Assembly (NCBI GenBank): GCA_964019415.1
Contig: OZ025885.1
Span: forward strand, 369,501 to 433,500
Direction of reading: 5' to 3'
DNA length: 64,000 bases
Origin: Ianthella basta
Lineage: Eukaryota; Porifera; Demospongiae; Verongiida; Ianthellidae
Position numbers and translations under genes: made by a program. How positions within the stretch are numbered: position 1 is the stretch's first letter; every line of letters starts with the position of its first letter. Shown piece after piece: positions 8,101-48,840 of the stretch. The notes below the pieces were generated by a model that saw only the letters and a program-made list of their open reading frames with translations, did no database searches and had not been told where the DNA came from.

Positions 8101-9938
8101 ATCTTGTCTCATCTTGCCATTTCTTACTACATCTTGTCTCATCTTGCCATTTCTTACTACATCTTGTCTCATCTTGCCATTTCTTACTACATCTTGTCTC
8201 ATCTTGCCATTTCTTACTACATCTTGTCTCATCTTGCCATTTCTTACTACATCTTGTCTCATCTTGCCATTTCTTACTACATCTTGTCTCATCTTGCCAT
8301 TTCTTACTACATCTTGTCTCATCTTGCCATTTCTTACTACATCTTGTCTCATCTTGCCATTTCTTACTACATCTTGTCTCATCTTGCCATTTCTTACTAC
8401 GTCTTGTCTCATCTTGCCATTTCTTACTACGTCTTGTCTCATCTTACCATTTCTTACTACATCTTGTCTCATCTTGCCATTTCTTACTACATCTTGTCTC
8501 ATCTTGCCATTTCTTACGACATCTTGTCTCATCTTGCCATTTCTTACGACATCTTGTCTCATCTTGCCATTTCTTACTATATCTTGTATCATCATGCCAT
8601 TTCTTACTACATCTTGTCTCATCATGCCATTTCTTACTAAATCTTGTCTCATCTTGCCATTTCTTACTATATCTTGCCTCATCTTGCCATTTCTTACTAC
8701 ATCTTGTCTCATCTTGCCATTTCTTACTACATCTTGTCTCATCTTGCCATTTCTTACTACGTCTAGTCTCATCTTGCCATTTCTTACTACATCTTGTCTC
8801 ATCTTGCCATTTCTTACTACGTCTTGTCTCATCTTGCCATTTCTTACTATATCCTGTCTCATCTTGCCATTTCTTACTATATCTTGTCTCATCTTGCCAT
8901 TTCTTACTATATCTTGTCACATCTTGCCATTTCTTACTACGTCTTGTCACATCTTGCCATTTCTTACTATATCTTGTCACATCTTGCCATTTCTTACTAT
9001 ATCTTGTCTCATCTTGCCATTTCTTACTATATCTTGTCTCATCTTGCCATTTCTTACTACATCTTGCCACATCTTGCCATTTCTTACTACGTCTTGTCTA
9101 ATCTTGCCATTTCTTACTACATCTTGTCACATCTTGCCATTTCTTACTACATCTTGTCTCATCTTGCCATTTCTTACTACGTCTTGTCTCATCTTGCCAT
9201 TTCTTAATATATCTTGTCTAATCTTGCCATTTCTTACTACTTCTTGTCTCATCTTGCCATTTCTTACTACATCTTGTCTCATCTTGCCATTTCTTACTAT
9301 ATCTGGTCTCATCTTGCCATTTCTTACTACATCTTGTCTCATCTTGCCATTTCTTACTACATCTTGTCTCATCTTGCCATTTCTTACTACATCTTGTCTC
9401 ATCTTGCCATTTCTTACTACATCTTGTCTCATCTTGCCATTTCTTACTACATCTTGTCTCATCTTACCATTTCTTACTACATCTTGTCTCATCTTGCCAT
9501 TTCTTACTACATCTTCTCACATCTTGCCATTTCTTACTACATCTTGTCTCATCTTGCCATTTCTTACTACGTCTTGTCTCATCTTGCCATTTCTAACTAC
9601 GTCTTGTCTCATCTTGCCATTTCTTACTACGTCTTGTCACATCTTGCCATTTCTTACTACGTCTTGTCACATCTTGCCATATCTTACTACGTCTTGTCTC
9701 ATCTTGCCATTTCTTACTACGTCTTGTCACATCTTGTCATTTCTTACTATATCTTGTCTCATCTTGCCATTTCTTACTACATCCTGTCTCATCTTGCCAT
9801 TTCTTACTATATCTTGTCTCATATTGCCATTTCTTACTACATCTTGTCACATCTTGCCATTTCTTACTACGTCTTGTCACATCTTGCCATTTCTTACTAC
9901 GTCTTGTCTCATCTTGCCATTTCTTACTATCTCTTGTC
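5111..9938 (+). repeat. 30-bp satellite array, block 1
   Basis: About 160 tandem monomers. The first unit (from 5111) joins ADI1 exon sequence almost directly and lacks one T. The main variable site is position 16-18 of the monomer (ACA, ACG, ATA or ATG) plus TCTC/TCAC near the end. The plus strand is about three-quarters pyrimidine, with only two G per unit. Frames read as repeating LPFLTTSCLI, CHFLLHLVSS or AISYYILSHL on plus and DETRCSKKWQ or MRQDVVRNGK on minus; none is taken as a gene. Confidence 0.98.
7780..9110 (+). repeat. Higher-order satellite block, copy A (2280-bp spacing)
   Basis: The pattern of monomer variants here recurs about 2461 bp downstream (for example the rare ATCTTGTATCATCATG word at 8581 and 11042). 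Subtracting the 181 bp added by the LINE insertion and its duplication leaves 2280 bp, exactly 76 monomers. Outer limits are approximate. Confidence 0.7.
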
Positions 9939-10046
9939 ATTGAAGAGTTGGGATTCCCTAAACCATCTGCGGAGGAGGCGTTCATGTGGGCCCAGAGTAG
10001 AGAAGACTGGAGACTGATCTGTAGTACATTAGCGAACACTGACTAG
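9939..10046 (+). pseudogene. C-terminal fragment of a LINE ORF2-like protein
   Basis: Thirty-five residues and a TAG stop, opening IEELGFPKPSAEEAF and closing with AQSREDWRLICSTLANTD. The pattern of an acidic/aromatic helix followed by (D/E)-x-W-R near the very C-terminus is common at the end of non-LTR retrotransposon polyproteins. No catalytic domain is present. The family call rests on the short tail plus the 3' microsatellite and is an inference. Confidence 0.5.
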
Positions 10047-10088
10047 TATATATATTATGCGTATGCGTATGTATGTATGACTCAGTGA

Positions 10089-10113
10089 ATTATGATTATG
10101 ATTATGATTATGA
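10089..10113 (+). repeat. ATTATG microsatellite tail of the LINE fragment
   Basis: Four copies of ATTATG at the element's 3' end, directly before the right target duplication CTTGTC. Confidence 0.9.
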
Positions 10114-10239
10114 CTTGTCTCATCTTGCCATTTCTTACTACCTCTTGTCTCATCTTGCCATTTCTTACTACATCTTGTCTCATCTTGCCATTTCTTACTA
10201 CATCTTGTCTCATCTTGCCATTTCTTACTACATCTTGTC

Positions 10240-11570
10240 TCATCTTGCCATTTCTTACTATATCTTGTCTCATCTTGCCATTTCTTACTACATCTTGTCT
10301 CATCTTGCCATTTCTTAATATATCTTGTCTCATCTTGCCATTTCTTACTACATCTTGTCTCATCTTGCCATTTCTTACTACATCTTGTCTCATCTTGCCA
10401 TTTCTTACTACATCTTGTCTCATCTTGCCATTTCTTACTACATCTTGTCTCATCTTGCCATTTCTTACTACATCTTGTCTCATCTTGCCATTTCTTACTA
10501 CATCTTGTCTCATCTTGCCATTTCTTACTACATCTTGTCTCATCTTGCCATTTCTTACTACATCTTGTCTCATCTTGCCATTTCTTACTACATCTTGTCT
10601 CATCTTGCCATTTCTTACTACATCTTGTCTCATCTTGCCATTTCTTACTACATCTTGTCTCATCTTGCCATTTCTTACTACATCTTGTCTCATCTTGCCA
10701 TTTCTTACTACGTCTTGTCTCATCTTGCCATTTCTTACTACATCTTGTCTCATCTTGCCATTTCTTACTACGTCTTGTCTCATCTTGCCATTTCTTACTA
10801 CGTCTTGTCTCATCTTGCCATTTCTTACTACATCTTGTCTCATCTTGCCTTTTCTTACTACATCTTGTCTCATCTTGTCATTTCTTACTACATCTTGTCT
10901 CATCTTACCATTTCTTACTACATCTTGTCTCATCTTGCCATTTCTTACTACATCTTGTCTCATCTTGCCATTTCTTACGACATCTTGTCTCATCTTGCCA
11001 TTTCTTACTATATCTTGTCTCATCTTGCCATTTCTTACTATATCTTGTATCATCATGCCATTTCTTACTACATCTTGTCTCATCATGCCATTTCTTACTA
11101 GATCTTGTCTCATCTTGCCATTTCTTACTAAATCTTGCCTCATCTTGCCATTTCTTACTACATCTTGTCTCATCTTGCCATTTCTTACTACATCTTGTCT
11201 CATCTTGCCATTTCTTACTACGTCTAGTCTCATCTTGCCATTTCTTACTACATCTTGTCTCATCTTGCCATTTCTTACTACGTCTTGTCTCATCTTGCCA
11301 TTTCTTACTATATCCTGTCTCATCTTGCCATTTCTTACTATATCTTGTCTCATCTTGCCATTTCTTACTATATCTTGTCACATCTTGCCATTTCTTACTA
11401 CGTCTTGTCACATCTTGCCATTTCTTACTATATCTTGTCACATCTTGCCATTTCTTACTATATCTTGTCTCATCTTGCCATTTCTTACTATATCTTGTCT
11501 CATCTTGCCATTTCTTACTACATCTTGCCACATCTTGCCATTTCTTACTACGTCTTGTCTCATCTTGCCA
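10240..11570 (+). repeat. Higher-order satellite block, copy B (2280-bp spacing)
   Basis: Partner of the block at about 7780-9110, sharing the same ordered series of variant monomers. The LINE at 9939 lies between the copies, so it inserted after, or was not included in, this duplication. Confidence 0.7.
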
Positions 11571-14500
11571 TTTCTTACTATATCTTGTCACATCTTGCCA
11601 TTTCTTACTATATCTTGTCACATCTTGCCATTTCTTACTATATCTTGTCTCATCTTGCCATTTCTTACTATATCTTCTCACATCTTGCCATTCCTTACTA
11701 TATCTTGTCTCATCTTGTCACATCTTGCCATTTCTCACTATATCTTGTCTCATCTTGCCATTTCTTACTACGTCTTGTCACATCTTGCCATTTCTTACTA
11801 TATCTTGTCACATCTTGCCATTTCTTACTACGTCTTGTCTCATCTTGCCATTTCTTACTATATCTTGTCACATCTTGCCATTTCTTACTATATCTTGTCA
11901 CATCTTGCCATTTCTTACTATATCTTGTCTCATCATGCCATTTCTTACTACATCTTGTCTAATCTTGCCATTTCTTACTACATCTTGTCTCATCTTGCCA
12001 TTTCTTACTATATCTTCTCACATCTTGCCATTTCTTACTATATCTTGTCTCATCTTGCCATTTCTTACTACATCTTGTCTCATCCTGCCATTTCTTACTA
12101 CATCTTGTCTCATCTTGCCATTTCTTACTACATCTTGTCTCATCTTGCCATTTCTTACTATATCTTGTCACATCTTGCCATTTCTTACTATATTTTGTCT
12201 CATCTTGCCATTTCTTACTATATCTTGTCTCATCATGCCATTTCTTACTATATCTTGTCTCATCTTGCCATTTCTTACTACATCTTGTCTCATCTTGCCA
12301 TTTCTTACTATATCTTCTCACATCTTGCCATTCCTTACTATATCTTGTCTCATCTAGTCACATCTTGCCATTTCTCACTATATCTTGTTACATCTTGCCA
12401 TTTCTTACTATATTTTGTCTCATCTTGCCATTTCTTACTACATCTTGTCTCATCATGCCATTTCTTACTATATCTTGTCTCATCTTGCCATTTCTTACTA
12501 CGTCTTGTCACATCTTGCCATTTCTTACTATATCTTGTCACATCTTGCCATTTCTTACTATATCTTGTCTCATCTTGCCATTTCTTACTACGTCTTGTCA
12601 CATCTTGCCATTTCTTACTATATCTTGTCACATCTTGCCATTTCTTATTACGTCTTGTCTCATCTTGCCATTTCTTACTATATCTTGTCACATCTTGCCA
12701 TTTCTTACTATATCTTGTCACATCTTGCCATTTCTTACTATATCTTGTCTCATCATGCCATTTCTTACTATATCTTGTCTCATCTTGCCATTTCTTACTA
12801 CATCTTGTCTCATCTTGCCATTTCTTACCATATCTTCTCACATCTTGCCATTTCTTACTATATCTTGTCTCATCTTGCCATTTCTTACTACATCTTGTCT
12901 CATCTTGCCATTTCTTACTACATCTTGTCTCATCTTGCCATTTCTTACTACATCTTGTCTCATCTTGCCATTTCTTACTACATCTTGTCTCATCTTGCCA
13001 TTTCTTACTATATCTTGTCACATCTTGCCATTTCTTACTATATTTTGTCTCATCTTGCCATTTCTTACTATAGCTTGTCTCATCATGCCATTTCTTACTA
13101 TATCTTGTCTCATCTTGCCATTTCTTACTACATCTTGTCTCATCTTGCCATTTCTTACTATATCTTCTCACATCTTGCCATTCCTTACTATATCTTGTCT
13201 CATCTTGTCACATCTTGCCATTTCTCACTATATCTTGTCTCATCTTGCCATTTCTTACTATATCTTGTCACATCTTGCCATTTCTTACTATATCTTGTCT
13301 CATCATGCCATTTCTTACTATATCTTGTCTCATCATGCCATTTCTTACTATATCTTGTCTCATCTTGCCATTTCTTACTACATCTTCTCACATCTTGCCA
13401 TTTCTTACTATATCTTGTCACATTTTGCCATTTCTTACTACATCTTGCCTCATCTTGCCATTTCTTACTACATCTTGTCTCATCTTGCCATTTCTTACTA
13501 CATCTTGTCACATCTTGCCATTTCTTACTATATCTTGTCTCATCTTGCCATTTCTTACTACATCTTGTCTCATCTTGCCATTTCTTACTATATCTTGTCT
13601 CATCTTGCCATTTCTTACTATATCTTGTCTCATCTTGCCATTTCTTACTATATCTCGTCTAATCTTGCCTTTTCTTACTACATCTTGTCACATCTTGCCA
13701 TTTCTTACTACATCTTGTCTCATCTTGCCATTTCTTACTACATCTTGTCTCATCTTGCCATTTCTTACTACATCTTGTCTCATCTTGCCAATTTTACTAT
13801 ATCTTGTCTCATCTTGCCATTTCTTACTACATCTTGTCTCATCTTGCCATTTCTTACTACATCTTGTCTCATCTTGCCATTTCTTACTACATCTTGTCTC
13901 ATCTTGCCATTTCTTACTATATCTTGTCTCATCTTGCCATTTCTTACTATATCTTGTCTCATCATGCCATTTCTTACTACATCTTGTCTCATCTTGCCAT
14001 TTCTTACTATATCTTGTCTCATCTTGCCATTTCTTACTACATCTTGTCTCATCTTGCCATTTCTTACTACATCTTGTCTCATCTTGCCTTTTCTTACTAT
14101 ATCTTGTCTCATCTTGCCATTTCTTACGATATCTTGTCTCATCTTGCAATTTCTTACTACATCTTGTCTCATCTTGCCATTTCTTACTACATCTTGTCTC
14201 ATCTTGCCATTTCTTACTACATCTTGTCTCATCTTGCCATTTCTTACTACATCTTGTTTCATCTTGCCATTTCTTACTACATCTTGTCTCATCTTGCCAT
14301 TTCTTACTACATCTTGTCTCATCTTGCCATTTCTTACTACATCTTGTCTCATCTTGCCATTTCTTACTACATCTTGTCTCATCTTGCCATTTCTTACTAC
14401 ATCTTGTTTCAACTTGCCATTTCTTACTACATCTTGTATCTTGCCATTTCTTACTACGTCTTGTCTCATCTTGCCATTTCTTACTACATCTTGTCTCATC

Positions 14501-16460
14501 TTGCCATTTCTTACTACGTCTTGTCTCATCTTGCCATTTCTTACTATATCCTGTCTCATCCTGCAATTTCTTACTACGTCTTGTCTCATCTTGCCATTTC
14601 TTACTATATCTTGTCACATCTTGCCATTTCTTACTACGTGTTGTCACATCTTGCCATTTCTTACTATATCTTGTCTCATCTTGCAATTTCTTACTTCGTC
14701 TTGTCACATCTTGCCATTTATTACTATATCTTGTCTCATCTTGCCATTTCTTACTACGTCTTGTCACATCTTGTTATTTCTTACTATATCTTGTCACATC
14801 TTGCCATTTCTTATTACGTCTTGTCTCATCTTGCCATTTCTTACTATATCTTGTCACATCTTGCCATTTCTTACTATATCTTGTCACATCTTGCCATTTC
14901 TTACTATATCTTGTCTCATCTCGCCATTTCTTACTATATCTTGTCTCATCTTGTTATTTCTTACTACATCTTGTCTCATCTTGCCATTTCTTACTATATC
15001 TTGCCTCATCTTGCCATTTCTTACTACGTCTTGTCTCATCTTGCCATTTCTTACTACATCTTGTCTCATCTTGCCATTTCTTACTACATCTTGTCTCATC
15101 TTGCCATTTCTTACTACGTCTTGTCTCATCTTCCCATTTCTTACTATATCCTGTCTCATCTTGCCATTTCTTACTACGTCTTGTCTCATCTTCCATTTCT
15201 TACTACATCTTGTCTCATCTTGCCATTTCTTACTATATCTTGTCTAATCTTGCCTTTTCTTACTATATCTTGTCTGATCTTGCCATTTCTTACTACATCT
15301 TGTCTCACATTGCCATTTCTTTAGACATCTTGTCTCATCTTGCCATTTCTTACTACATCTTGTCTCATCTTGCCATTTCTTACTACATCTTGTCACATCT
15401 TGCCATTTCTTACTACATCTTGTCTCATCTTGCCATTTCTTACTACATCTTGTCTCATCTTGCCATTTCTTACTATATCTTGTCTCATCTTGCCATTTCT
15501 TACTATATCTTGTATCATCATGCCATTTCTTACTACATCTTGTCTCATCTTTCCATTTCTTACTACATCTTGTCTCATCTTGCCATTTCTTACTACATCT
15601 TGTCTCATCTTGCCATTTCTTACTACATCTTGTCTCATCTTGCCATTTCTTACTGCGTCTTGTCTCATCTTGCCATTTCTTACTACATCTTGTCTCATCT
15701 TGCCATTTCTTACTACATCTTGTCTCATCTTGCCATTTCTTACTATATCTTGTCTAATCTTGCCATTTCTTACTACGTCTTGTCTCATCTTGCCATTTCT
15801 TACTATATCTTTTCACATCTTGCCATTTCTTACTACGTCTTGTCTCATCTTGCCATTTCTTACTATATCTTGTCACATCTTGCCATTTCTTACTACGTCT
15901 TGTCTCATCTTGCCATTTCTTACTACGTCTTGTCACATCTTGCCATTTCTTACTATATCTTGTCTCATCTTGTTATTTCTTACTACGTCTTGTCACATCT
16001 TGCCATTTCTTACTATATCTTGTCACATCTTGCCATTTCTTACTACGTCTTGTCTCTTCTTGCCATTTCTTACTATACCTTGTCACATCTTGCCATTTCT
16101 TACTATATCTTGTCACATCTTGCCATTTCTTACTATATCTTGTCTCATCATGCCATTTCTTACTATATCTTGTCTCATCATGCCATTTCTTACTATATCT
16201 TGTCTCATCTTGCCATTTCTTACTATATCTTGTCACATCTTGCCATTTCTTACTACATCTTGTCTCATCTTTCCATTTCTTACTACATCTTGTCTCATCT
16301 TGCCATTTCTTACTACATCTTGTCTCATCTTGCCATTTCTTACTACATCTTGTCACATCTTGCCATTTCTTACTATATCTTTTCACATCTAGCCATTTCT
16401 TACTATATCTTGTCTCATCTTGCCATTTCTTACCACATCTTGTCTCATCTTTCTATTTCT

Positions 16461-18430
16461 TACTACGTACATCTTGTCTCATCTTGCCATTTCTTACTAC
16501 ATCTTGTCTCATCTTGTCATTTCTAACTATATCTTGTCTCATCTTGCCATTTCTTACTATATCTTGTCTCATCTTGCCATTTCTTGCAATATCTTGTCTA
16601 ATCTTGCCATTTCATACTATATCTTGTCTCAGCTTGCCATTTCTTACTACATCTTGTCTCATCTTGCCATTTCTTACTACATCTTGTCTCATCTTGCCAT
16701 TTCTTACTATATCTTGTCTCATCTTGCCATTTCTTACTACATCTTGTCTCATCTTGCCATTTCTTACTGCGTCTTGTCTCATCTTGCCATTTCTTACTAC
16801 ATCCTGTCTCATCTTGCCATTTCTTACTATATCTTGTCTCATCTTGCCATTTCTTACTATATCTTGTCTAATCTTGCCATTTCTTACTACGTCTTGTCTC
16901 ATCTTGCCATTTCTTACTATATCTTGTCACATCTTGCCATTTCTTACTACGTCTTGTCACATCTTGCCATTTCTTACTGTATCTTGTCTCATCTTGCCAT
17001 TTCTTACTACGTCTTGTCACATCTTGCCATTTCTTACTATATCTTGTCACATCTTGCCATTTCTTACTACGTCTTGTCTCATCTTGCCATTTCTTACTAT
17101 ATCTTGTCACATCTTGCCATTTCTTACTATATCTTGTCACATCTTGCCATTTCTTACTATATCTTGTCTCATCATGCCATTTCTTACTATATCTTGTCTC
17201 ATCATGCCATTTCTTACTATATCTTGTCTCATCTTGCTATTTCTTACTACATCTTGTCTCATCTTGCCATTTCTTACTATATCTTGTCACATCTTGCCAT
17301 TTCTTACTACATCTTGTCTCATCTTGCCATTTCTTACTACATCTTGTCTCATCTTGCCATTTCTTACTACATCTTGTCTCATCTTGCCATTTCTTACTAC
17401 ATCTTGTCTCATCTTGCCATTTCTTACTATATCTTGTCACATCTAGCCATTTCTTACTATATTTTGTCTCATCTTGCCATTTCTTACTACATCTTGTCTC
17501 ATCTTTCCATTTCTAACTACATACATCTTGTCTCATCTTGCCATTTCTTACTACATCTTGTCTCATCTTGTCATTTCTAACTATATCTTGTCTCATCTGG
17601 CCATTTCTTACTATATCTTGTCTCATCTTGCCATTTCTTACTATATCTTGTCTAATCTTGCCATTTCATACTATATCTTGTCTCAGCTTGCCATTTCTTA
17701 CTACATCTTGTCTCATCTTGCCATTTCTTACTACGTCTTGTCTCATCTTGCCAGTTCTTACTACATCTTGTCTCATCTTGCCATTTCTTACTATATCTTG
17801 TCTCATCTTGCCATTTCTTACTATATCTTGTCTCATCTTGCCATTTCTTACTACGTCTTGTCACATCTTGCCATTTCTTACTATATCTTGTCTCATCTTG
17901 CCATTTCTTACTACGTCTTGTCACATCTTGCCATTTCTTACTATATCTTGTCACATCTTGCAATTTCTTACTACGTCTTGTCTCATCTTGCCATTTCTTA
18001 CTATATCTTGTCACATCTTGCCATTTCTTACTATATCTTGTCACATCTTGCCATTTCTTACTATATCTTGTCTCATCATGCCATTTCTTACTATATCTTG
18101 TCTCATCATGCCATTTCTTACTATATCTTGTCTCATCTTGCTATTTCTTACTACATCTTGTCTCATCTTGCCATTTCTTACTATATCTTGTCACATCTTG
18201 CCATTTCTTACTACATCTTGTCTCATCTTGCCATTTCATACTACATCTTGTCTCATCTTGCCATTTCTTACTACATCTTGTCTCATCTTGCCATTTCTTA
18301 CTACATCTTGTCTCATCTTGCCATTTCTTACTATATCTTGTCACATCTAGCCATTTCTTACTATATTTTGTCTCATCTTGCCATTTCTTACTACATCTTG
18401 TCTCATCTTTCCATTTCTTACTACGTACAT
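16461..18430 (+). repeat. Higher-order satellite blocks marked by a 4-bp insertion
   Basis: An unusual TACTACGTACATC junction (4 bp longer than a normal unit) occurs at 16461, 17515 (as AACTACATACATC) and 18419. The spacings of 1054 and 904 bp equal 35 and 30 monomers plus the 4 bp. Monomer order between markers is also shared. Confidence 0.75.
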
Positions 18431-21400
18431 CTTGTCTCATCTTGCCATTTCTTACTACATCTTGTCTCATCTTGTCATTTCTAACTATATCTTGTCTCAT
18501 CTGGCCATTTCTTACTATATCTTGTCTCATCTTGCCATTTCTTACAATATCTTGTCTAATCTTGCCATTTCATACTATATCTTGTCTCAGCTTGCCATTT
18601 CTTACTACATCTTGTCTCATCTTGCCATTTCTTACTACGTCTTGTCTCATCTTGCCAGTTCTTACTACATCTTGTCTCATCTTGCCATTTCTTACTATAT
18701 CTTGTCTCATCTTGCCATTTCTTACTATATCTTGTCTCATCTTGCCATTTCTTACTATATCTTGTCTCATCTTGCCATTTCTTACTACATCTTCTCTCAT
18801 CTTGCCATTTCTTACTACATCTTGTTTCATCTCGCCATTTCTTACTATATCTTGTCTCATCTTGCCTTTTCTTACTATATCTTGTCTCATCTTGCCATTT
18901 CTTACGATATCTTGTCTCATCTTGCAATTTCTTACTACATCTTGTCTCATCTTGCCATTTCTTACTACATCTTGTCTCATCTTGCCATTTCTTAATACAT
19001 CTTGTCTCATCTTGCCATTTCTTACTACATCTTGTTTCATCTTGCCATTTCTTACTACATCTTGTCTCATCTTGCCATTTCTTACTACATCTTGTCTCAT
19101 CTTGCCATTTCTTACTACATCTTGTCTCATCTTGCCATTTCTTACTACATCTTGTCACATCTTGCCATTTCTTACTATATCTTTTCACATCTTGCCATTT
19201 CTTACTACGTCTTGTCTCATCTTGCCATTTCTTACTATATCTTGTCTCATCTTGCCATTTCTTACTACGTCTTGTCTCATCTTGCCATTTCTTACTATAT
19301 CTTGTCACATCTTGCCATTTCTTTCTACATCTTGTCTCATCTTGCCATTTCTTACTATATCTTGTCACATCTTGCCATTTCTTACTATATCTTGTCAATT
19401 CTTCCATTTCTTACTATATCTTGTTTCATCATGCCATTTCTTACTATATCTTGTCTCATCTTGCCATTTCTTACTACATCTTGTCTCATCTTGCCATTTC
19501 TTACTACGTCTTGTCACATCTTGCCATTTCTTACTATATCTTGTCTCATCTTGCCATTTCTTACTACATCTTGTTTCATCTTGCCATTTCTTACTACATC
19601 TTGTCTCATCTTGCCATTTCTTACTATATCTTGTCTCATCATGCCTTTTCTTACTATATCTTGTCTCATTTTGCCATTTTTTACTACATCTTGTCTCATC
19701 TTGCCATTTCTTACTATATCTTGTCTCATCTTTCCATTTCTTACTATATCTTCTCTCATCTTGCCATTTCTTACTACATCTTGTCTCATCTTGCCATTTC
19801 TTACTACATCTTGTCTCATCTTGCCATTTCTTACTACATCTTGTCTCATCTTGCCATTTCTTACTATATCTTGTCACATCTTGCCATTTCTTACTATATT
19901 TTGTCTCATCTTGCCATTTCTTACTACATCTTGTCTCATCTTGCCATTTCTTACTATATCTTGTCTCATCTTGCCATTTCTTACTATATCTTGTCTAATC
20001 TTGTCTTTTCTTACTATATCTTGTCTCATCTTGCCATTTCTTACGACATCTTGTCTCATCTTGCCATTTCTTACTACATCTTGTTTCATCTTGCCATTTC
20101 TTACTACATCTTGTCTCATCTTGCCATTTCTTACTACTTCTTGTCTCATCTTGCCATTTCTTACTACATCTTGTCTCATCTTGCCATTTCTTACTACATC
20201 TTGTCTCATCTTGCCATTTCTTACTACATCTTGTCTCATCTTGCCATTTCTTACTACATCTTGTCTCATCTTGCCATTTCTCACTACATCTTGTCTCATC
20301 TTGCCATTTCTTACTACATCTTGTCTCATCTTGCCATTTCTTACTACATCTTGGTCTCATCTTGCCATTTCTTACTACATCTTGTCTCATCTTGCCATTT
20401 CTTACTATATCTTGTCTCTTCTTGCCATTTCTTACTATATCTTGTCTCGTCTTGCCATTTCTTACTATATCTTGTCTCATCTTGCCATTTCTTACTATAT
20501 CTTGTCTCATCTTGCCATTTCTTACTACATCTTGTCTCATCTTGCCATTTATTACTACATCTTGTCTAATCTTGCCTTTCTTACTATATCTTGTCTCATC
20601 TTGCCATTTCTTACTACATTTTGTCTCATCTTGCCATTTCTTACTACATCTTGTCTCATCTTGCCATTTCTTACTACATCTTGTCTCCTCTTGCCATTTT
20701 CTTACTACATCTTGTCCATCTTGCTATTTCTTACTACATCTTGTCTCATTTTGCCATTTCTTACTACATCTTGTCACATCTTGCCATTTCTTACTACATC
20801 TTGTCTCATCTTGCCATTTCTTACTACATCTTGTCTCTTTGCTATTTTTACTACATCTTGTCTCATTTTGCCATTTCTTACTACATCTTGTCTCATCTTG
20901 CCATTTCTTACTACATCTTGTCTCATCTTGCCATTTCTTACTACATCTTGTCTCATCTTGCCATTTCTTACTACATCTTGTCTCATCATGCCATTTCTTA
21001 CTATATCTTGTCTCATCTTGCCATTTCTTACTATATCTTTGTCTCATCTTGCCATTTCTTACTACATCTTGTCTTCATCTTGCCATTTCTTACTACATCT
21101 TGTCTCATCTTGCCATTTCTTACTATATCTTGTCTCATCTTGCCATTTCTTACTACGTCTTGTCTCATCTTGCCATTTCTTACTATATCTTGTCACATCT
21201 TGCCATTTCTTACTACATCTTGTCACATCTTGCCATTTCTTACTATATCTTTTCACATCTTGCCATTCTTACTATATCTTGTCTCATCTTGCCATCTCTT
21301 ACTATATCGTGTCTCATCTGCCATTTCTTACTACGTCTTGTCACATCTTGCCATTTCTTACTATTTCTTGTCACATCTTGCCATTTCTTACTACATCTTG

Positions 21401-23979: not shown

Positions 23980-24275
23980 GTTGATATTTCTAAAAGACAC
24001 TAGTTAAAGGGGATCAGGTATCAGACGTTTCGGCAGCACTACGGCTGCCTTCATCAGTGATTATAATGACACTTACAAGCAGGTGTATAAATAGGGGGGT
24101 AGTCACGTGAGGCATTGGTGTTTACAGGAAAAGCATACATCATGTAATGTCTCTAGTGTTTACAGAATTAAGCATACATCATGCAATGTCTTTAACCGGA
24201 ACAGGGGGTTAAAATAATAAGCGAAAATGAAATAATACTAATAACGGATGGACGGTTACATAAATCAATCTAGAA
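23980..24275 (+). repeat. Inverted repeat arm, left
   Basis: A 296-bp arm that is the reverse complement of 24470-24763, with two single-base indels and a few substitutions. It begins GTTGATATTTC and ends TCAATCTAGAA. Together the arms could form a stem of about 294 bp. Confidence 0.95.
24020..24061 (-). ncRNA. Hammerhead-like ribozyme, left Penelope arm
   Basis: On minus: helix I strand ATCA, core box CTGATGA, a hairpin GGCAGC/GCTGCC (helix II), core box GAAAC, cleavage triplet GTC, and helix I return strand TGAT. The boxes and helix I pairing are exact. There is one extra A between CTGATGA and helix II. Helix III is only the palindrome ACGT with no loop, so an active fold would need two molecules or two tandem copies. 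Confidence 0.7.
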
Positions 24276-24468: not shown

Positions 24469-24469
24469 C

Positions 24470-24763: not shown

Positions 24764-24797
24764 ATGAATCTGCCTAGCCACTCAGGCCTTTACAGCA

Positions 24798-24812
24798 TAC
24801 ATCTTGTCTCAT
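24798..24812 (+). repeat. Satellite sliver between two insertions
   Basis: Fifteen satellite bases, TACATCTTGTCTCAT. They serve as the right target duplication of the Penelope-like insert (24798-24810) and the left target duplication of the next insert (24801-24812). Confidence 0.85.
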
Positions 24813-24930: not shown

Positions 24931-24962
24931 CCTTCCCCCTAACATCCTACAAAGATGGAAGA

Positions 24963-37502: not shown

Positions 37503-39718
37503 TTGTCTCATCTAGCCATTTCTTACTACATCTTGTCACATCTTGCCATTTCTTACTACGTCTTGTCACATCTTGCCATTTCTTACTACATCTTGTCTCA
37601 TCTTGCCATTTCTTACTATATCTTGTCTCATCTTGCCATTTCTTACTACATCTTGTCTCATCTTGCCATTTCTTACTACGTCTTGTCTCATTTTGCCATT
37701 TCTTACTACATCTTGTGTCATTTTGCCATTTCTTGCTACATCTTGTCTCATCTTGCCATTTCTTACTACATCTTGTCTCATCTTGCCATTTCTTACTACA
37801 TCTTGTCTCATCTTCTATTTCTTACTATATCTTGTCTCATCTTGCCATTTCTTACTACATCTTGTCTCATCTTGCCATTTCTTACTACGTCTTGTCTCAT
37901 CTTGCCATTTCTTTCTACATCTTGTTTCATCTTGCCATTTCTTACTACATCTTGTCTCATCTTGCCATTTCTTACTACATCTTGTCTCATTTTGCCATTT
38001 CTTAATAAATCTTGTCTAATCTTGCTATTTCTTTCTACGTCTTGTCTCATCTTGCCATTTCTTACTACGTCTTGTCTAATCTTGCTATTTCTTACTACGT
38101 CTTGTCTCATCTTGCCATTTCTTACTACGTCTTGTCACATCTTGCCATTTCTTACTGCATCTTGTCTCATCTTGCCATTTCTTACTATATCTGTTCTCAT
38201 CTTGCCTTTTCTTACTACGTCTTGTCACATCTTGCCTTTTCTTACTACGTCTTGTCACATCTTGCCATTTCTTACTATGTCTTGTCTCATCTTGCCATTT
38301 CTTACTTCATCTTGTCTCATCTTGCCATTTCTTACTACATCTTGTCTCATCTTGCCATTTCTTACTACATCTTGTCTCATCTTGCCATTTCTTACTACGT
38401 CTTGTCTCATCTTGCCATTTCTCACTACGTCTTGTCTCATCTTGCCATTTCTTACTACGTCTTGTCTCATCTTGCCCTTTCTTACTACGTCTTGTCACAT
38501 TTTGCCATTTCTTACTACGTCTTGTCTCATTTTGCCATTTCTTACTACGTCTTGTCTCATTTTGCCATTTCTTACTACGTCTTGTCTCATCTTGCTATTT
38601 CTTACTACATCTTGTCTCATCTTGCCATTTCATACTACATCTTGTCTCATCTTGCCATTTCTTATTACATCTAGTCTCATCTTGCCATTTCTTACTACAT
38701 CTTGTCATATCTTGCCATTTCTTACTACGTCTTGTCTCATCTTGCCCTTTCTTACTACATCTTGTCACATCTTGCCATTTGTTATTATATCTTGTCTCAT
38801 CTTGCCATTTCCTACTACGTCTTGTCTCATCTTGCCAGTTCTTACTATATCTTGTCTCATCTTGCCATTTCTTACTACGTCTTGTCTCATCTTGCCATTT
38901 CATACTACATCTTGTCTCATCTTGCCATTTCTTACTACATCTTGTCTCATCTTGCCATTTCTTACTATATCTTGTCTCATCTTGCCATTTCTTACAACAT
39001 CTTGTCTCATCTTGCCATTTCTTACTATCTCTTGTCTCATCTTGCCATTTCTTACTACATCTTGTCTCATCTTGCCATTTCTTACTACATCTTGTCTCAT
39101 CTTACCATTTCTTACTATATCTTGTCTCATCTTGCCATTTCTTACTACATCTTGTCTCATCTTGCCATTTCTTACTCTATATTGTCACATCTTGCCATTT
39201 CTTACTAAATCCTGTCTCATCTTGCCATTTCTTACTACATCTTGTCTCATCTTGCCATTTCTTACTACATCTTGTCTCATCTTGCCATTTCTTACTATAT
39301 CTTCTCTCATCTTGCCATTTCTTACTACGTCTAGTCTCATCTTGCCTTTTCTTACTACATCTTGTCTCTTCTTTTCATTTCTTACTATATCTTGTCTCAT
39401 CTTGCCATTTCTTACGTCTTGTCTCATCTTGCCATTTCTTACTTCATCTTGACTAATCTTGCCATTTCGTACTACGTCTTGTCTCATCTTGCCATTTCTC
39501 TCTTCATCTCGTCACATCTTGCCATTTCTTACGACATCTTGTCTCATCTTGCCATTTCTTACTATATCTTGTCTAATCTTGCCATTTCTTAGTATATCTT
39601 GTCTCATCTTGCCATTTCTTACTACGTCATGTCACATCTTGCCATTTCTTACTACGTCTTGTCACATCTTGCCATTTCTTACTATATCTTGTCTCATCTT
39701 GCCATTTCTTACTAAATC
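37503..39718 (+). repeat. Higher-order block, copy 3
   Basis: Full-length 2216-bp copy. Its start repeats 35887 at +1616 and its end repeats 37146-37502 at +2216. Only scattered single-base differences separate it from copy 2, indicating recent duplication, or a collapsed or expanded assembly. Confidence 0.85.
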
Positions 39719-42289
39719 TTGTCTCATCTAGCCATTTCTTACTACATCTTGTCACATCTTGCCATTTCTTACTACGTCTTGTCACATCTTGCCATTTCTT
39801 ACTATATCTTGTCTCATCTTGCCATTTCTTACTACGTCTTGTCTCATCTTGCCATTTCTTACTACATCTTGTCACATCTTGCCATTTCTCACTACGTCTT
39901 GTCTCATCTTGCCATTTCTTACTATATCTTGTCACATCTTGCCATTTCTTACTGCATCTTGTCTCATCTTACCATTTCTTACTATATCTTGTCACATCTT
40001 GCCATTTCTTACTAAATCTTGTCTCATCATGCCATTTCTTACTATATCTTGTCACATCTTGCCATTTCTTACTACATCTTGTCTCATCTTGCCATTTCTT
40101 ACTATATCTTGTCTCATCTTGCCATTTCTTACTAAATCTTGTCTCATCTTGCCATTTCTTACTACATCTTGTCTCATCTTGCCATTTCTTACTATATCTT
40201 GTCTCATCTTGCCATTTCTTACTACATCTTGTCTCATCTTGCCATTTCTTACTACATCTTGTCTCATCTTGCCATTTCTTACTACGTCTTGTCTCATCTT
40301 GCCATTTCTTACTACATCTTGTCTCATCTTGCCATTTCTTACTACATCTTGTCTCATCTTGCCATTTCTTACTACATCTTGTCTCATCTTGAGAATTCTT
40401 ACTATGTCTTGTCTCATTTTGCCATTTCTTACTACATTTTGTCTCATCTTGCCATTTCTTACTATATCTTGTCTCATCTTGCCATTTCTTACTATATCTT
40501 GTCTCATCTTGCCATTTCTTACTACATCTTGTCTCATCTTGCCATTTCTTACTACGTCTTGTCACATCTTGCCATTTTTTACTATATCTTGTCACATCTT
40601 GCCATTTCTTACTATATCTTGTTTCATCATGCCATTTCTTACTATATCTTGTCTCATCTTGCCTTTTCTTACTACATCTTGTCTCATCTTGCCATTTCTT
40701 ACTATATCTTGTCTCATCTTGCCATTTCTTACTACATCTTGTCTCATCTTGCCATTTCTTACTATATCTTGTCTCATCTTGCCATTTCTTACTACGTCTT
40801 GTCTCATCTTGCCATTTCTTACTATATCTTGTCACATCTTGCCATTTCTTACTACATCTTGTCTCATCTTGCCATTTCTTACTATATCTTGTCTCATCTT
40901 GCCTTTTCTTACTACGTCTTGTCTCATCTTGCCATTTCTTACTATATCTTGTCTCATCTTGCCATTTCTTACTACGTCTTGTCTCATCTTGCCATTTCGT
41001 ACTTCATCTTGTCTCATCTTGCCATTTCTTACTACGTCTTGTCTCATCTTGCCATTTCTCACTTCATCTTGTCTCATCCTGCCATTTCTTACTACATCTT
41101 ATCTCATCTTGCCATTTTTTACTATATTTTGTCTCATCTTGCCATTTCTTACTACGTCTTGTCTCATCTTGCCATTTCTTACTACATCTTGTCACATCTT
41201 GTTATTTTTTACTATGTCTTGTCACATCTTGCCATTTCTTACTACATCTTGTCACATCTTGCCATTTCTTACTACGTCTAGTCTAATCTTGCCATTTCTT
41301 ACTATATCTTGTCTCATCTTGCCATTTCTTACTACGTCTAGTCACATCTTGCCATTTCTTACTACGTCTTGTCACATCTTGCCATTTCTTACTATATCTT
41401 GTCTCATCTTGCCATTTCTTACTACGTCTTGTCTCATCTTGCCATTTCTTACTATATCTTGTCACATCTTGCCTTTTCTTACTACGTCTTGTCTCAACTT
41501 GCCATTTCTTATTATATCTTGTCACATCTTGCCATTTCTTACTATATCTTGTCTCATCTTGCCATTTCTTACTATATCTTGTCACATCTTGCCATTTCTT
41601 ACTACATCTTGTCTCATCATGCCATTTCTTACTATATCTTGTCACATCTTGCCATTTCTTACTACATCTTGTCTCATCTTGCCATTTCTTACTACATCTT
41701 TACTCATCTTGCCATTTCTTACTACGTCTTGTCTCATCTTGCCATTTCTTACTACATCTTGTCTCATCTTGCCATTTCTTATTACGTCTTGTCTCATCTT
41801 GCCATTTCTTACTACATCTTGTCTCATCTTGCCATTTCTTACTACGTCTTGTCTCATCTTGCCATTTCTTACTACATCTTGTCTCATGTTGCCATTTCTT
41901 ACTACATCTTGTCACATCTTGCCATTTGTTACTACATCTTGTCTCATCTTGCCATTTCTTACTACATCTTGTCTCATCTTGCCATTTCTTACTACATCTT
42001 GTCTCATCTTGCCATTTCTTACTACATCTTTTCTCATCTTGCCATTTCTTACTACATCTTGTCTCATCTTGCAATTTCTTACTACATCATGTCTCATCTT
42101 GCCATTTCTTACTACATCTTGTCTCATCTTGCCATTTCTTACTATATCTTGTCTCATCTTGCCATTTCTTACTATATCTTGTCTCATCTTGCCATTTCTT
42201 ACTACATCTTGTCTCATCTTGCCATTCTTACTAAATCTTGTCTCATCTTGCCATTTCTTACTACGTCTTGTCTCATCTGGCCATTTCGT

Positions 42290-44940
42290 ACTTCATCTAG
42301 TCTCATCTTGCCATTTCTTACTACGTCTTGTCTCATCTTGCCATTTCTTACTACATCTTGTCTCATCTTGCCATTTCTTACTACGTCTTGTCTCATCTTG
42401 CCTTTTCTTACTACGTCTTATCTCATCTTGCCTTTTCTTACTACGTCTTGTGTCATCTTGCCATATCTTGCTATGTCTTGTCACATCTTGCCATTTCTTA
42501 CTTCATCTAGTCTCATCATGCCATTTCTTACTGCGTCTTGTCACATCTTGCCATTTCTTACTACGTCTTGTCTCATCTTGCTATTTCTTACTACGGCTTG
42601 TCTAATCTTGCCATTTCTTTCTACGTCTTGTCACATCTTGCCATTTCTTACTTCATCTCTTCACATCTTGCCATTTCTTACTACGTCTTGTCTCATGTTG
42701 CCATTTCTTACTACGTCTTGTCTAATCTTGCCATTTCCTACTACGTCTTGTCACATCTTGCCATTTCTTACTTCATCTCTTCTCATCTTGCCATTTTTTA
42801 CTGCATCTTGTCTCATCTTGCCATTTCTTACTACTCATTGTCTCATCTTGCCATTTCTTACTACGTCTTGTCTCATCTTGCCATTTCTTACTATGTCTTG
42901 TCTCATCTTGCCATTTCTTACTACGTCTTGTCTCATCTTGCCATTTCTTACTACGTTTTGTCTAATCTTGCCATTTCCTACTACGTCTTGTCGCATCTTG
43001 CCATTTCTTACTTCATCTAGTCTCATCATGTTATTTCTTACTACATCTTGTCTCATCTTGCCATTTCTTACTACGTTTTGTCACATCTTGCCTTTTCTTA
43101 CTACGTCTTGTCACATCTTGCCTTATCTTACTGCGTCTTGTCTCATCTTGCCATTTCTTACTACATCTTGTCTCATCTTGCCATTTCTTACTATATCTTG
43201 TCTCATCTTGCCATTTCTTACTATATCTTGTCTCATCATGCTATTTCTTACTACGTCTTGTCTCATCTAGCCATTTCTTACTACGTCTTGTCTCATCTTG
43301 CTATTTCTTACTACGGCTTGTCTAATCTTGCCATTTCCCACTACGTCTTGTCACATCTTGCAATTTCTTACTTCATCTCTTCACATCTTGCCATTACTTA
43401 CTACGTCTTGTCTCATGTTGCCATTTCTTACTACGTCTTGTCTCATCTTGCCATTTCTTACTATATCTTGTCACATCTTGCCATTTCTTACTACGTCTTG
43501 TCTCAACTTGCCATTTCTTACTATATCTTGTCACATCTTGCCATTTCTTACTATATCTTGTCTCATCTTGCCATTTCTTACTACATCTTGTCACATCTTG
43601 CAATTTCTTACTACATCTTGTCTCATCATGCCATTTCTTACTATATCTTGTCACATCTTGCCATTTCTTACTACATCTTGTCTCATCTTGCCATTTCTTA
43701 CTACATCTTGTTTCATCTTGCCATTTCTTACTACGTCTTGTCTCATCTTGCCATTTCTTACTTTATCTTGTCTCATCTTGCCATTTCTTACTACGTCTTG
43801 TCTCATCTTGCCATTTCTTACTACATCTTGTCTCATCTTGCCATTTCTTACTACATCTTGTCACATCTTGCCATTTCTTACTACATCTTGTCTCATCTTG
43901 CCATTTCTTACTACATCTTGTCTCATCTTTCCATTTCTAACTACATCTTGTCTCATCTTGCCATTTCTTACTACATCTTGTCTCATCTTGCCATTTCTTA
44001 CTACATCATGTCTCATCTTGCCATTTCTTACTACATCTTGTCTCACCTTGCCATTTCTTACTACATCTTGTCTCATTTTGCCATTTCTTACTATATCTTG
44101 ACTCATGTTGCCATTTCTTACTATATCTTGTCTCATCTTGCCATTTCTTACTACATCTTGTCTCATCAGGCCATTCTTACTATATCTTGTCTCATCTTGC
44201 CATTTCTTACTACGTCTTGTCTCATCTTGCCATTTCTTATTTCATCTAGTCTCATCTTGCCATTTCTTACTACGTCTTGCCTCATCTTGCCATTTCTTAC
44301 TACATCTTGTCTCATCTTGCCATTTCTTACTACGTCTTGTCTCATCTTGCCATTTCTTACTACGTCTTATCTCATCTTGCCTTTTCTTACTACGTCTTGT
44401 GTCATCTTGCCATATCTTACTATGTCTTGTCACAAATTGCCATTTCTTACTTCATCTAGTCTCATCATGCCATTTCTTACTACGTCTTGTCACATCTTGC
44501 CATTTCTTACTACGGCTTGTCTAATCTTGCCATTTCCCACTACGTCTTGTCACATCTTGCCATTTCTTACTACATCTCTTCACATCTTGCCATTTCTTAC
44601 TACGTCTTGTCTCATGTTGTTATTTCTTACTACGTCTTGTCTAATCTTGCCATTTCCTACTACGTCTTGTCTCATCTTGCCATTTCTTACTTCATCTCTT
44701 CTCATCTTGCCATTTTTTACTGCATCTTGTCTCATCTTGCCATTTCTTACTACTCATTGTCTCATCTTGCCATTTCTTACTACGTCTTGTCTCATCTTGC
44801 CATTTCTTACTATGTCTTGTCTCATCTTGCCATTTCTTACTACGTCTTGTCTCATCTTGCCATTTCTTACTACGTTTTGTCTCATCTTGCCATTTCCTAC
44901 TACGTCTTGTCACATCTTGCCATTTCTTACTTTATCTAGT
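42290..44940 (+). repeat. Higher-order satellite blocks, 1949-bp spacing
   Basis: Variant series including CTACGGCTTGTC, TTCATCTCTTCAC and CTACTCATTGTC recur with an offset near 1949 bp (42293 to 44242), that is 65 monomers minus one base. CTACGGCTTGTC itself occurs near 42590, 43310 and 44510. Confidence 0.7.
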
Positions 44941-45285
44941 CTCATCATGCCATTTCTTACTACATCTTGTCTCATCTTGACATTTCCTACTACGTTTTGT
45001 CACATCTTGCCTTTGCTTACTACGTCTTGTCACATCTTGCCATTCTTACTATATCTTGTCTCATCTTGCCATTTCTTACTACGTCTTGTCTCATCTTGCC
45101 ATTTCTTACTATATCTTGTCTCATCTTGCCATTTCTTACTATATCTTGTCTCATCTTGCCATTTCGTACTACATCTTGTCTCATCTTGCCATTTCTTACT
45201 ATATCTTGTCACATCTTGCCATTTCTTATTACATCTTGTCTCATCTTGCCATTTCTTACTATATCTTGTCTCATCTTGCAATTTC

Positions 45286-46100
45286 TTAATATATCGTGTC
45301 TCATCTTGCCATTTCTTACTACGTCTTGTCACATCTAGCTATTTCTTACTATATCTTGTCTCATCTTGCCATTTCTTACTACGTCTTGTCACATCTTGCA
45401 ATTTCTTACTATATCTTGTCTCATCTTGCCATTTCTTACTACGTATTGTCACAACTTCCCATTTCTTACTATATCTTGTCTCATCTTGCCATTTCTTACT
45501 ACGTCTTGTCACATCTTGCCATTTCTTACTATATCTTGTCTCATCTTGCCATTTCTTACTACGTCTTGTCTCATCTTGCCATTTCTTACTATATCTCGTC
45601 ACATCTTGCCATTTCTTACTATATCTTGTCTCATCTTGCCATTTCTTACTATATCTTGTCTCATCATGCCATTTCTTACTATATCTTGTCTCATCTTGCC
45701 ATTTCTTACTACATCTTGTCTCATCATGCCATTTCTTACTATATCTTGTCACATCTTGCCATTTCTTACTATATCTTGTCTCATCTTGCCATTTCTTACT
45801 ACATCTTGTCTCATCTTGTCATTTCTTACTACATCTTGTCTCATCTTGTCATTTCTTACTATATCTTGTCACATCTTGCCATTTCTTACTACGTCTTGTC
45901 TCATCTTGCCATTTCTTACTACATCTTGTCTCATCTTGCCATTTCTTAATACATCTTGTCTCATCTTGCCATTTCTTACTACATCTTGTCTCATCTTGCC
46001 ATTTCTTACTACATCTTGTCTCATCTCGCCATTTCTTACTATATCTTGTCTCATCTTGCCATTGCTTACTATATCTTGTCACATCTTGCCATTTCTTACT
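45286..46100 (+). repeat. Higher-order satellite block, copy A (3090-bp spacing)
   Basis: The rare TTAATATATCGTGTC at 45286 and the variants after it recur at 48841. Offset is 3555 bp; removing the 465 bp contributed by the 47015-47467 insertion and its 12-bp duplication leaves 3090 bp, exactly 103 monomers. Confidence 0.75.
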
Positions 46101-47020
46101 ATATCTTGTCTAATCTTGCCTTTTCTTACTATATCTAATCTCATCTTGCCATTTCTGACTACATCTTGTCTCATCTTGCCATTTCTTACTACATCTTGTC
46201 TCATCTTGCCATTTCTTACTACGTCTTGTCTCATCTTGCCATTTCTTACTACGTCTTGTCTCATCTTGCCATTTCTTACTACGTCTTGTCTCATCTTGCC
46301 ATTTCTTACTACATCTTGTCTCATCTTGCCATTTCTTACTATATCTTGTCACATCTTGCCATTTCTTACTATATCTTGTTACATCTTGCCATTTCTTACT
46401 ACGTCTTGTCTCATCTTGCCATTTCTTTCTATATCTTGTCACATCTTGCTATTTCTTACTATATCTTGTCTCATCTTGCCATTTCTTACTACGTCTTGTC
46501 TCATCTTGCCATTCCTTGCTATATCTTGTCATATCTTGCCATTTCTTACTACGTCTTGTCACATCTTGCCATTTCTTACTATATCTTGTCTCATCTTGCC
46601 ATTTCTTACTATGTCTTGTCTCATCTTGCCATTTCTTACTATATCTTGTCACATCTTGCCATTTCTTACTACGTCTTGTCACATCTTGTTATTTCTTACT
46701 ATATCTTGTCACATCTTGCCATTTCTTACTACATCTTGTCACATCTTGCCATTTCTTACTATATCTTGTCACATCTTGCCATTTCTTACTACGTCTTGTC
46801 TCATCTTGCCATTTCTTACTATATCATATCACATCTTGTCATTTCTTACTATATCTTGTCACATCTTGCCGTTTCTTACTATATCTTGTCTCATCATGCC
46901 ATTTCTTACTATATCTTGTCTCATCTTGCCATTTCTTACTACGTCTTGTCTCATCTTTCCATTTCTTACTATATCTTGTCACATCTTGCCATTTCTTACT
47001 ATATCTTGTCTCATATATCG

Positions 47021-47105
47021 TAATATCCAGTGATAAGCCTTTGTTCAACCTAGCCCGGCCTGCATGGCCGTTGCAGTGGCTTACTGCAATGAACCGACCT
47101 CTCAA
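47021..47105 (+). repeat. Direct terminal repeat, left
   Basis: Runs from TAATATCCAGTGAT to GAACCGACCTCTCA. It is nearly identical to 47389-47468 apart from an internal CATG-containing insertion and a few substitutions. Confidence 0.9.
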
Positions 47106-47230
47106 CAATCCCGCGCAAGTCACGCTCATGACTTAGCCTTCCCCCATTAATATTCGCTCTTGTTGAAACCACAAGTGTTTCACTGGTGGGGGATACAAGA
47201 GTGACTAGTCATCATGCATTCCATCAGTAT

Positions 47231-47275
47231 GCCACCCTGATGATCCCCAATCAGGGCGAAACAGCTGTCTGTGGC
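47231..47275 (+). ncRNA. Hammerhead ribozyme motif, slightly degraded
   Basis: On plus: GCCACC (helix I), CTGATGA, TCCC-loop-GGGC (helix II with a U/C mismatch at the closing pair), GAAAC, AGCTGTC with the GTC triplet, TGTGGC. One helix I pair and one helix II pair are lost compared with 24963-25007, probably lowering activity. The palindromic helix III ACAGCTGT is intact. Confidence 0.75.
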
Positions 47276-47388
47276 TCTTCCATCTTTGTAGGATGACTAG
47301 TAATGGGGGAGGGCGCTCACTGGTTGCCATCAATAGGGCTCCGACCCCCAGCCTCCTGAAACACTTCGGTGTAGAAGGCTGTTAGGCA

Positions 47389-47467
47389 TAATATCCAGTG
47401 ATTAGCCTTTGATCAACCTAGCCCGGCCTGGCCGTTGCAGTGGCTTACTGCAATGAACCGACCTCTC
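47389..47467 (+). repeat. Direct terminal repeat, right
   Basis: Second copy of 47021-47105, offset 368 bp, slightly shorter inside (GGCCTGGCCG in place of GGCCTGCATGGCCG). Confidence 0.9.
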
Positions 47468-48840
47468 ATCTTGTCTCATCTTGCCATTTCTTACTACATC
47501 TTGTCTCATCTTGCCATTTCTTACTACATCTTGTCTCATCTTGCCATTTCTTACTACATCTTGTCTCATCTTGCCATTTCTTACTACGTCTTGTCTCATC
47601 TTGCCATTTCTTACTACATCTTGTCTCATCTTGTCATTTCTTACTACATCTTGTCTCATCTTGCCATTTCTTACTACATCTTGTCTCATCTTGCCATTTC
47701 TTACTATATCTTGTCTCATCTTGCCAGTTCTTACTACATCTTGTCTCATCTTGCCATTTCTTACTATATCTTGTCTCATCTTGCCATTTCTTACTATATC
47801 TTGTCTCATCTTGCCATTTCTTACTATATCTTGTCACATCTTGCCATTTCTTACTATATCTTGTCTCATCTTGCCATTTCTTACTACGTCTTGTCTCATC
47901 TTGCCATTTCTCACCATATCTTGTCTCATCTTGCCATTTCTTACTACGTCTTGTCACATCTTGCCATTTCTTACTATATCTTATCACATCTTGCCATTTC
48001 TTACTATATCTTGTCACATCTTGCCATTTCTTACAACATCTTGTCTCATCTTGCCATTTCTTACTACGTCCTGTCTCATCTTGCCATTTCTTACTACGTC
48101 TTGTCACATCTTGCCATTTCTTACTACGTCTTGTCTCATCTTGCCATTTCTTACTACGCTTTGTCTCATCTTGCCATTTCTTACTACATCTTGTCACATT
48201 TTGCCATTTCTTACTACGTCTTGTCTCATTTTGCCATTTCTTACTACATCTTGTCTCATCTTGCCATTTCTTACTACGTCTTGTCACATCTTGCCAATTC
48301 ATACTACGTCTTGTCACATCTTGTCATTTCTTACTATATCTTGTCTCATCTTGCCATTACTTACTACGTCTTGTCACATCTTGCCATTTCTTACTATATC
48401 TTGTCACATCTTGCCATTTCTTACTACGTCTTGTCTCATCTTGCCATTTCTTACTATATCTTGTCTCATCTTGCCATTTCTTACTATATCTTGTCACATT
48501 TTCCCATTTCTTGCTATATCTTGTCACATCTTGCCATTTCTTACTACGTCTAGTCTCATCTTGCCAATTCTTACTATATCTTGTCACATCTTGCCATTTC
48601 TTACTATATCTTGCCACATCTTGCCATTTCTTACCATAACTTGTCTCATCTTGTCATTTCTTACTATATCTTGTCTCATCTTGCCATTTCTTACTATATC
48701 TTGTCTCATCTTGCCATTTCTTACTACATCTTGTCTAATCTTGCCATTTCTTACTATATCTTGTCACATCTTGCCATTTCTTATTACATCTTGTCTCATC
48801 TTGCCATTTCTCACTATATCTTGTCTCATCTTGCCATTTC

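Follow-up and report, generated by a model that had tools for sequence, protein, structure and literature searches.

A 30-bp satellite in the genome of the sponge Ianthella basta has received four insertions at nearly the same phase of its monomer. They lie in a stretch of 64,000 nucleotides, called the window here (contig OZ025885.1, positions 369,501 to 433,500; C18:369501-433500 in a genome of 209 Mb and 96 contigs), and comprise a tail like that of a long interspersed nuclear element (LINE), what reads as the remnant of a Penelope-like element (PLE; element A), and two hammerhead retrozymes (elements B and C). The phase shared by the Penelope-type insertions A, B and C is probably the one at which the monomer best matches the general, weak target profile of a single enzyme, the LINE having landed there by coincidence. 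A tandem satellite thereby serves as a ruler: because the same 30 positions are on offer in every monomer, the phase of an insertion reports the site preference of the enzyme that integrated it. The satellite and the target duplications, which were established by sequence check and by a phase hidden Markov model (HMM), are as follows.

5116..64000, plus strand: 30-bp satellite block, consensus TTGCCATTTCTTACTACATCTTGTCTCATC (Tandem Repeats Finder (TRF), phase HMM)
9933..9938, plus strand: LINE duplication, left copy, CTTGTC, phase 20-25
10114..10119, plus strand: LINE duplication, right copy, CTTGTC, phase 20-25
23967..23979, plus strand: element A duplication, left copy, TACATCTTGTCTC, phase 15-27
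24798..24810, plus strand: element A duplication, right copy, TACATCTTGTCTC, phase 15-27
24801..24812, plus strand: element B duplication, left copy, ATCTTGTCTCAT, phase 18-29
25359..25370, plus strand: element B duplication, right copy, ATCTTGTCTCAT, phase 18-29
47003..47014, plus strand: element C duplication, left copy, ATCTTGTCTCAT, phase 18-29
47468..47479, plus strand: element C duplication, right copy, ATCTTGTCTCAT, phase 18-29
24798..24812, plus strand: single 15-bp satellite stretch, TACATCTTGTCTCAT, common to the duplications of A (24798-24810) and B (24801-24812)

The phases of 20-25, 15-27, 18-29 and 18-29 assigned in a preliminary description of the window were confirmed by both methods, as was, on the sequence, the identity of the B and C duplications. 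The opposite orientation reported for these two elements is true of their units, the hammerhead lying on the minus strand in B and on the plus strand in C. Because the array is periodic, a duplication of n bases is indistinguishable from one of n plus multiples of 30; the reading of 12-13 bp in the satellite is backed by copies at ordinary, non-satellite sites, where duplications measure 11-17 bp with a mode of 13 (n = 32, families A, B and C). The insertions had been counted as four, which holds for the elements; A and B flank one shared 15-bp stretch, however, and the places are thus three. That A and B abut on this stretch, although the block spans at least 66 kb, may reflect a nested insertion into a fresh duplication, a joint event or a contraction of the array, which are indistinguishable here. 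The chance of such clustering had been put at one percent or less. Under a uniform-phase null, this is upheld when all four centres are taken (within 2.5/30, P = 0.003) but not for the three non-LINE insertions (P = 0.025).

The LINE itself drops out of the pattern:

9939..10113, plus strand: 5'-truncated LINE-like tail with an (ATTATG)n 3' end (34 other genome matches)

A tail of the (ATTATG)n type was seen in the window and in 20 other copies, and the 35 codons of the window copy gave no Pfam match. The phase of the LINE looks coincidental, because in the 20 other copies whose 3' flanks were read CTTG never follows the tail immediately; in one of them, L087, it appears a few bases farther on.

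Target profile and satellite phase

The profile was drawn from 32 non-satellite sites (11 of family A, 9 of B and 12 of C) out of 49 insertions, with six satellite insertions held out. Eleven insertions without a clear duplication of at least 11 bp were excluded (C15_3687, C3_6463, C9_5199, L052, L057, L060, L061, L062, L067, L069 and L070), including L052, whose 11-bp match was judged spurious. Five loci with a missing, palindromic or composite flank had been omitted beforehand (C3_8336, C3_8696, C8_7312, C4_3405 and C23_3446), and site C2_126 was entered by hand, the automatic finder having picked a TG repeat. The copies fetched were the top-scoring ones and are thus a non-random sample. When aligned on their centres, the 32 sites yield a weak palindromic (mirror-symmetric) profile in which A is favoured where the duplication starts and at -2, and T where it ends and at +2. 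In a leave-one-out analysis, the true position took a median rank of 0.12-0.13 of the offsets. Ordinary sites of one family could also be predicted from another: the mean rank was 0.275 from A to B and C combined (3 of 400 displaced controls doing equally well), 0.255 from A to C (6/400), 0.168 from B to C (0/400) and 0.221 from C to B (3/400).

This profile, although trained on no satellite, picks out the phases used in the 30-bp satellite and two of the three in a related 35-bp one. On the monomer consensus, its 20-nt version placed the centre of B and C (23.5) first and that of A (21.5) second among 30 positions; on the consensus of the 35-bp satellite, it placed family-B copies on contigs C21 and C15 first and second among 35. 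With the actual local sequences, the ranks were 2/31 for A, 1 or 2/31 for B, 3/31 for C, 3/31 for C21 and 1/31 for C15. Single-family profiles put the phase of B and C at 2/30 (A alone), 1/30 (C alone) and 3/30 (B alone). Across the six satellite sites, the mean rank was 0.146, compared with an average of 0.588 for profiles from displaced windows, none of which was as good in 2000; column-shuffled profiles were as good in 7/1000 over five sites (A, C, C21, C15, and C10 at its maximal duplication). Two simpler predictors were rejected on the satellite sites, namely AT content alone (ranks of 27 for A, 11-13 for B, 19 for C and 19 for C21 out of 31, with only C15 first) and a tally of left-hand A and right-hand T.

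In the 35-bp satellite, all three family-B insertions (C10, C15 and C21) fall on CTTACCTTGTC or its near side; CTTGTC is complete in the C21 duplication and partial in those of C10 and C15. About 15 kb of this satellite read by HMM held one 62-bp non-satellite gap, on C15 (gaps of up to 15 bases are unlisted). A pattern search in both orientations of B found satellite-embedded copies on C10, C15 (an apparent two-place pair), C18 (the window) and C21. The forward pattern of C found one on C13 besides the window copy, and the reverse pattern of C found none. The forward pattern of A also found none; it misses the window copy too and is therefore an unfair negative.

Several observations weigh against a profile-driven phase. 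The C10 copy, for which readings of the duplication range from 9 to 15 bp and the ranks accordingly from 1 to 20 of 31, stands at 23/35 on the consensus and at 20/31 locally at the maximal duplication, reaching 1/31 only at the minimal one. On C13, a 10-bp satellite holds a family-C copy that has a 6-bp duplication, ranks 23/31 and does not fit. Beyond the window, the profile ranks C21 and C15 high, is ambiguous at C10 and fails at C13. Narrow profiles (12-14 nt) put B and C at only 5-7 of 30. At ordinary sites, prediction is weak from A to B (0.300, 37/400 controls as good) and from B and C combined to A (0.361, 21/400), and AT content alone predicts sites at 0.375 (B) and 0.330 (C). Moreover, the six satellite sites are few and partly non-independent, since in the window B and C occupy an identical word, while A and B share one monomer.

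That the phases coincide by chance, with no preference at all, is unlikely. Such a coincidence would be helped by there being only three places, by the post hoc choice of the pattern, by the P of 0.025 for the three non-LINE insertions and by the indifference of the LINE to CTTG in the 20 copies read. It leaves unaccounted for, however, the high ranks given to these phases by an independently trained profile, as well as the three further B insertions on or beside the homologous word of another satellite.

The preliminary description had instead proposed an endonuclease preference for the satellite word CTTGTC. A preference survives, in that the profile of 32 sites picks the observed phase for the three Penelope-type insertions; the word does not. 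It is present in all window duplications and in C21, and partly in C10 and C15, and 7 of the 32 ordinary duplications hold CTTG or CAAG, although two of these (L063 and L065, ending in TTCTTG) may carry CTTG only because they overlap the end of the element itself. The full CTTGTC, however, occurs in 0/32 ordinary duplications, and some 97 kb of other 30-bp satellite carries no insertion, making specific recognition of the word quite improbable. Because the ordinary sites lack CTTGTC while their profile ranks the satellite phase high, the preference of A, B and C is likely a general, weak and palindromic one that is visible at ordinary sites.

Tandem arrays expand by unequal exchange, and a single insertion could in principle have been duplicated with its flanks, its phase being inherited, as an apparent B pair with the same junction string near both ends of C15 (69995 and 7323985) might suggest; this is barely conceivable for the window, where A, B and C are different elements rather than copies of one another, and the C10, C15 and C21 junctions differ as well. 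The C15 pairing, drawn from the matched string, may itself stem from subtelomere exchange or from an assembly artefact.

Two ends, one tail and the proposed mobilisation of retrozymes

The three elements of the Penelope type and their ribozymes are arranged as follows.

23980..24797, no strand assigned: element A, PLE remnant with inverted arms, end1 left, end2 with tail right (sequence comparison)
24813..25358, no strand assigned: element B, hammerhead retrozyme with a 374-bp unit, head-to-head inverted, end1 left, end2 right
24963..25007, minus strand: type I hammerhead ribozyme in B (Rfam RF00163, 40.1 bits, cut-off 34)
47015..47467, plus strand: element C, hammerhead retrozyme with a 365-bp unit, 1.2 directly ordered units, with the other (5') end on the left and end2 on the right
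47231..47275, plus strand: type I hammerhead in C, degenerate (RF00163, 22.3 bits, below the cut-off of 34, E 0.009)

In the window, element A has inverted arms of 234 nt. It matches a repeat family with a 3.3-kb copy at C3:6465116-6468420, in which protein is coded in two inverted halves. That copy, rather than the window remnant, matches reverse transcriptase (RT; PF00078, E 6.9e-5 and 2.9e-5, under the curated cut-off), with YVDD recognised by eye; its tested half matches GIY-YIG (PF01541, E 3.1e-4, 21.4 bits against a cut-off of 22.6), with the motif VVYSIPC..TYIGQTGR also read by eye. Comparison of the PLE protein with PDB sequences gave no match at E 0.01. From these sub-threshold Pfam matches, the motifs, the inverted arms and the tail, element A reads as a member of a Penelope-like (RT plus GIY-YIG) family. 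By eye, it also shows a hammerhead-like core, CTGATGA..GAAACGTC, for which Rfam gives no match. Inverted pseudo-long terminal repeats (pLTRs) with a tail of about 30 nt on one side are present in the family, with one end1 and one end2 in 13 of 13 assignable copies (18 examined), and a target duplication is present in 12 of 14 copies (11 ordinary sites, one of which was entered by hand, and the window), one of the others having none and one lying inside an AAG repeat.

Units of B and C also occur in tandem, in 374-bp steps at C10:1606112-1607256 and in 365-bp steps at C7:2398783-2401001, respectively. In their hammerheads and short tandem units, both fit the metazoan hammerhead retrozymes as described in the available sections of PMC7229834.

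In each family, the ends of copies form two clusters, end1 and end2, which bracket the tail and lie roughly 30, 43 and 54 nt apart in A, B and C. Of 55 copies counted, 39 had both ends in a cluster (13 of A, 11 of B and 15 of C); in the other 16 (5 of A, 4 of B and 7 of C), an end was truncated, fell beyond the sequence fetched or remained unassigned. Of the 39, 38 paired an end1 with an end2, both facing outward, the sole exception being an end1/end1 copy at a perfectly palindromic locus. Separately, the B locus at C4:3405372-3410613 (L031/L032) is palindromic, including the flanks seen, and may be a recent large inverted duplication or an assembly fold-back. In all three families, end1 lies at CAAC just before a shared box, CCTAGCC, and in C it overlaps the box. 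Because B and C are related (81.5% identity across 173 bp, with C compared to L009), the box counts as one coincidence, with a chance of about 0.5% for a match so placed, a figure inferred rather than computed. Each tail folds with a hairpin, but no better than shuffled sequences do.

This two-end and tail signature, characteristic of PLEs, suggests that PLE enzymes mobilise retrozymes. On balance, animal hammerhead retrozymes would seem to be PLE passengers: a tail module in B and C would be read by a PLE enzyme with one start per strand, and its staggered palindromic preference would be inherited, the satellite phase being one consequence. The proposed module would comprise two alternative RT start points and a CAAC that lies just before the CCTAGCC box or overlaps it. 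From the observed ends, duplications and target profile, we infer one Penelope-type enzyme (GIY-YIG nuclease plus RT), from A or a close relative, that would serve A, B and C. Such an enzyme would cut the two strands at points staggered by 12-13 bp and prime reverse transcription from both 3' ends, which would give outward-facing ends, the duplication and indifference to orientation. Lacking strand bias, it would leave elements in either orientation with the same duplication, and within the monomer it would use the phase that best matches its general profile.

Published work on an Anolis PLE protein, as far as the available text extends, describes cleavage and extension of both strands, a preference for AT-rich DNA with ATT, and RT starting at two adjacent internal sites (PMC11167929). 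In vitro, the start of RT by this protein did not differ between strands (PMC11167929, same portion); thus, the rule of one end of each kind needs an explanation of its own.

A LINE is named in the literature as an alternative mover of retrozymes (PMC7229834 and PMC11722881, in the parts accessible to us). For B and C this is decidedly unlikely. In the copies read, their ends lack a LINE-like tail; like A, they display head-to-head inversion together with a tail and two fixed ends, and they share the duplication length range of A and, weakly, its target profile.

The satellite blocks and their setting

According to the phase HMM, the main 30-bp block reaches at least C18:441000 and is thus at least 66 kb long; within the window, leaving aside shifts by one or a few bases, it is broken only at 9939-10113, 23980-25358 and 47015-47467. 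A second block of the same satellite adjoins it at a distance:

1..1407, plus strand: right end of the neighbouring 30-bp satellite block (TRF, phase HMM)

This neighbour starts at C18:322001 or earlier, is degenerate from about 1160 and stops at window position 1407; 3.7 kb of other DNA (window 1408-5115) keeps the two apart. The HMM found no insertions in the 30-bp satellite of C18 outside the window, in 47.5 kb on one side (322001-369500) and 7.5 kb on the other (433501-441000), and none in 42.3 kb of 30-bp array on C1, where two stretches of about 200 bases are N and the final 7.7 kb, being non-satellite, are outside the count. Together these make up the insertion-free total of about 97 kb given above.

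An exon of an acireductone dioxygenase (ARD) gene (window 4926-5108, minus strand; PF03079, E 1.3e-23) adjoins the start of the main block at 5116, and a 20-bp tandem repeat, TGTGACAGGGAGGACTCTGC, occupies window 2157-2486 (16.5 copies, 96% matches). Among the first 100 of 1032 places of the 30-bp satellite, some lie near contig ends (e.g., C10:8221405-8237714 of 8240729), often on the minus strand at left ends and the plus strand at right ends, as if subtelomeric; others are contig-internal. A related 10-bp satellite, ATCTTGCCTC/ATCTTGCTTA, at C13:6780300-6781900 (L103) suggests that the 30- and 35-bp monomers may have grown from a decamer.

Comparison with known systems

The LINE-like element with its (ATTATG)n tail resembles known LINEs in its 5' truncation, simple-repeat tail and short duplication; the 20 other copies read show no CTTG preference. 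Element A shares with endonuclease-containing (EN+) PLEs of the Penelope/Poseidon type, in the accessible portions of PMC3846280 and PMC11167929, a putative combination of RT and GIY-YIG, the inverted pLTRs, the tail of about 30 nt at one of them, target duplications, AT-leaning targets and, presumably, cutting and priming on both strands. Its family and its presumed passengers differ in duplication length (11-17 bp, compared with 8-10 bp in the rotifer examples of those portions) and in that their target preference takes the form of a palindromic profile, which the satellite phases here put to the test. The available part of PMC8490949, on schistosome W-elements, has no direct bearing.

Elements B and C share with metazoan non-LTR (lacking long terminal repeats) retrozymes, as given in the sections available of PMC7229834 and PMC7761336, the type I hammerhead, direct tandem copies and duplications longer than 4 bp; their units of 365-374 bp compare with published circular RNAs of about 170-400 nt. 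Whereas those retrozymes are described there as tandem copies, many copies here are inverted head to head with the tail on one side, in the manner of PLEs. PLEs have been put forward as strong candidate movers of metazoan retrozymes (PMC7229834), in which, by the available text of PMC7761336, no conserved motif reveals the autonomous mover; the proposal is published without a shared motif in what we could access of PMC7229834, PMC7761336 and PMC11722881. No demonstration of PLEs moving retrozymes was recognised among the open-access papers listed by literature searches, most of them seen in outline only and most subscription papers lying outside the scope.

PLEs and retrozymes are already known as kinds, and what is new is the footprint of two ends, a tail and a target profile. 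The two-end and tail signature, together with the shared profile, constitutes a type of evidence so far missing and makes PLE mobilisation directly testable; if the reading is correct, the tail module would provide the missing motif that ties retrozymes to their mobiliser.

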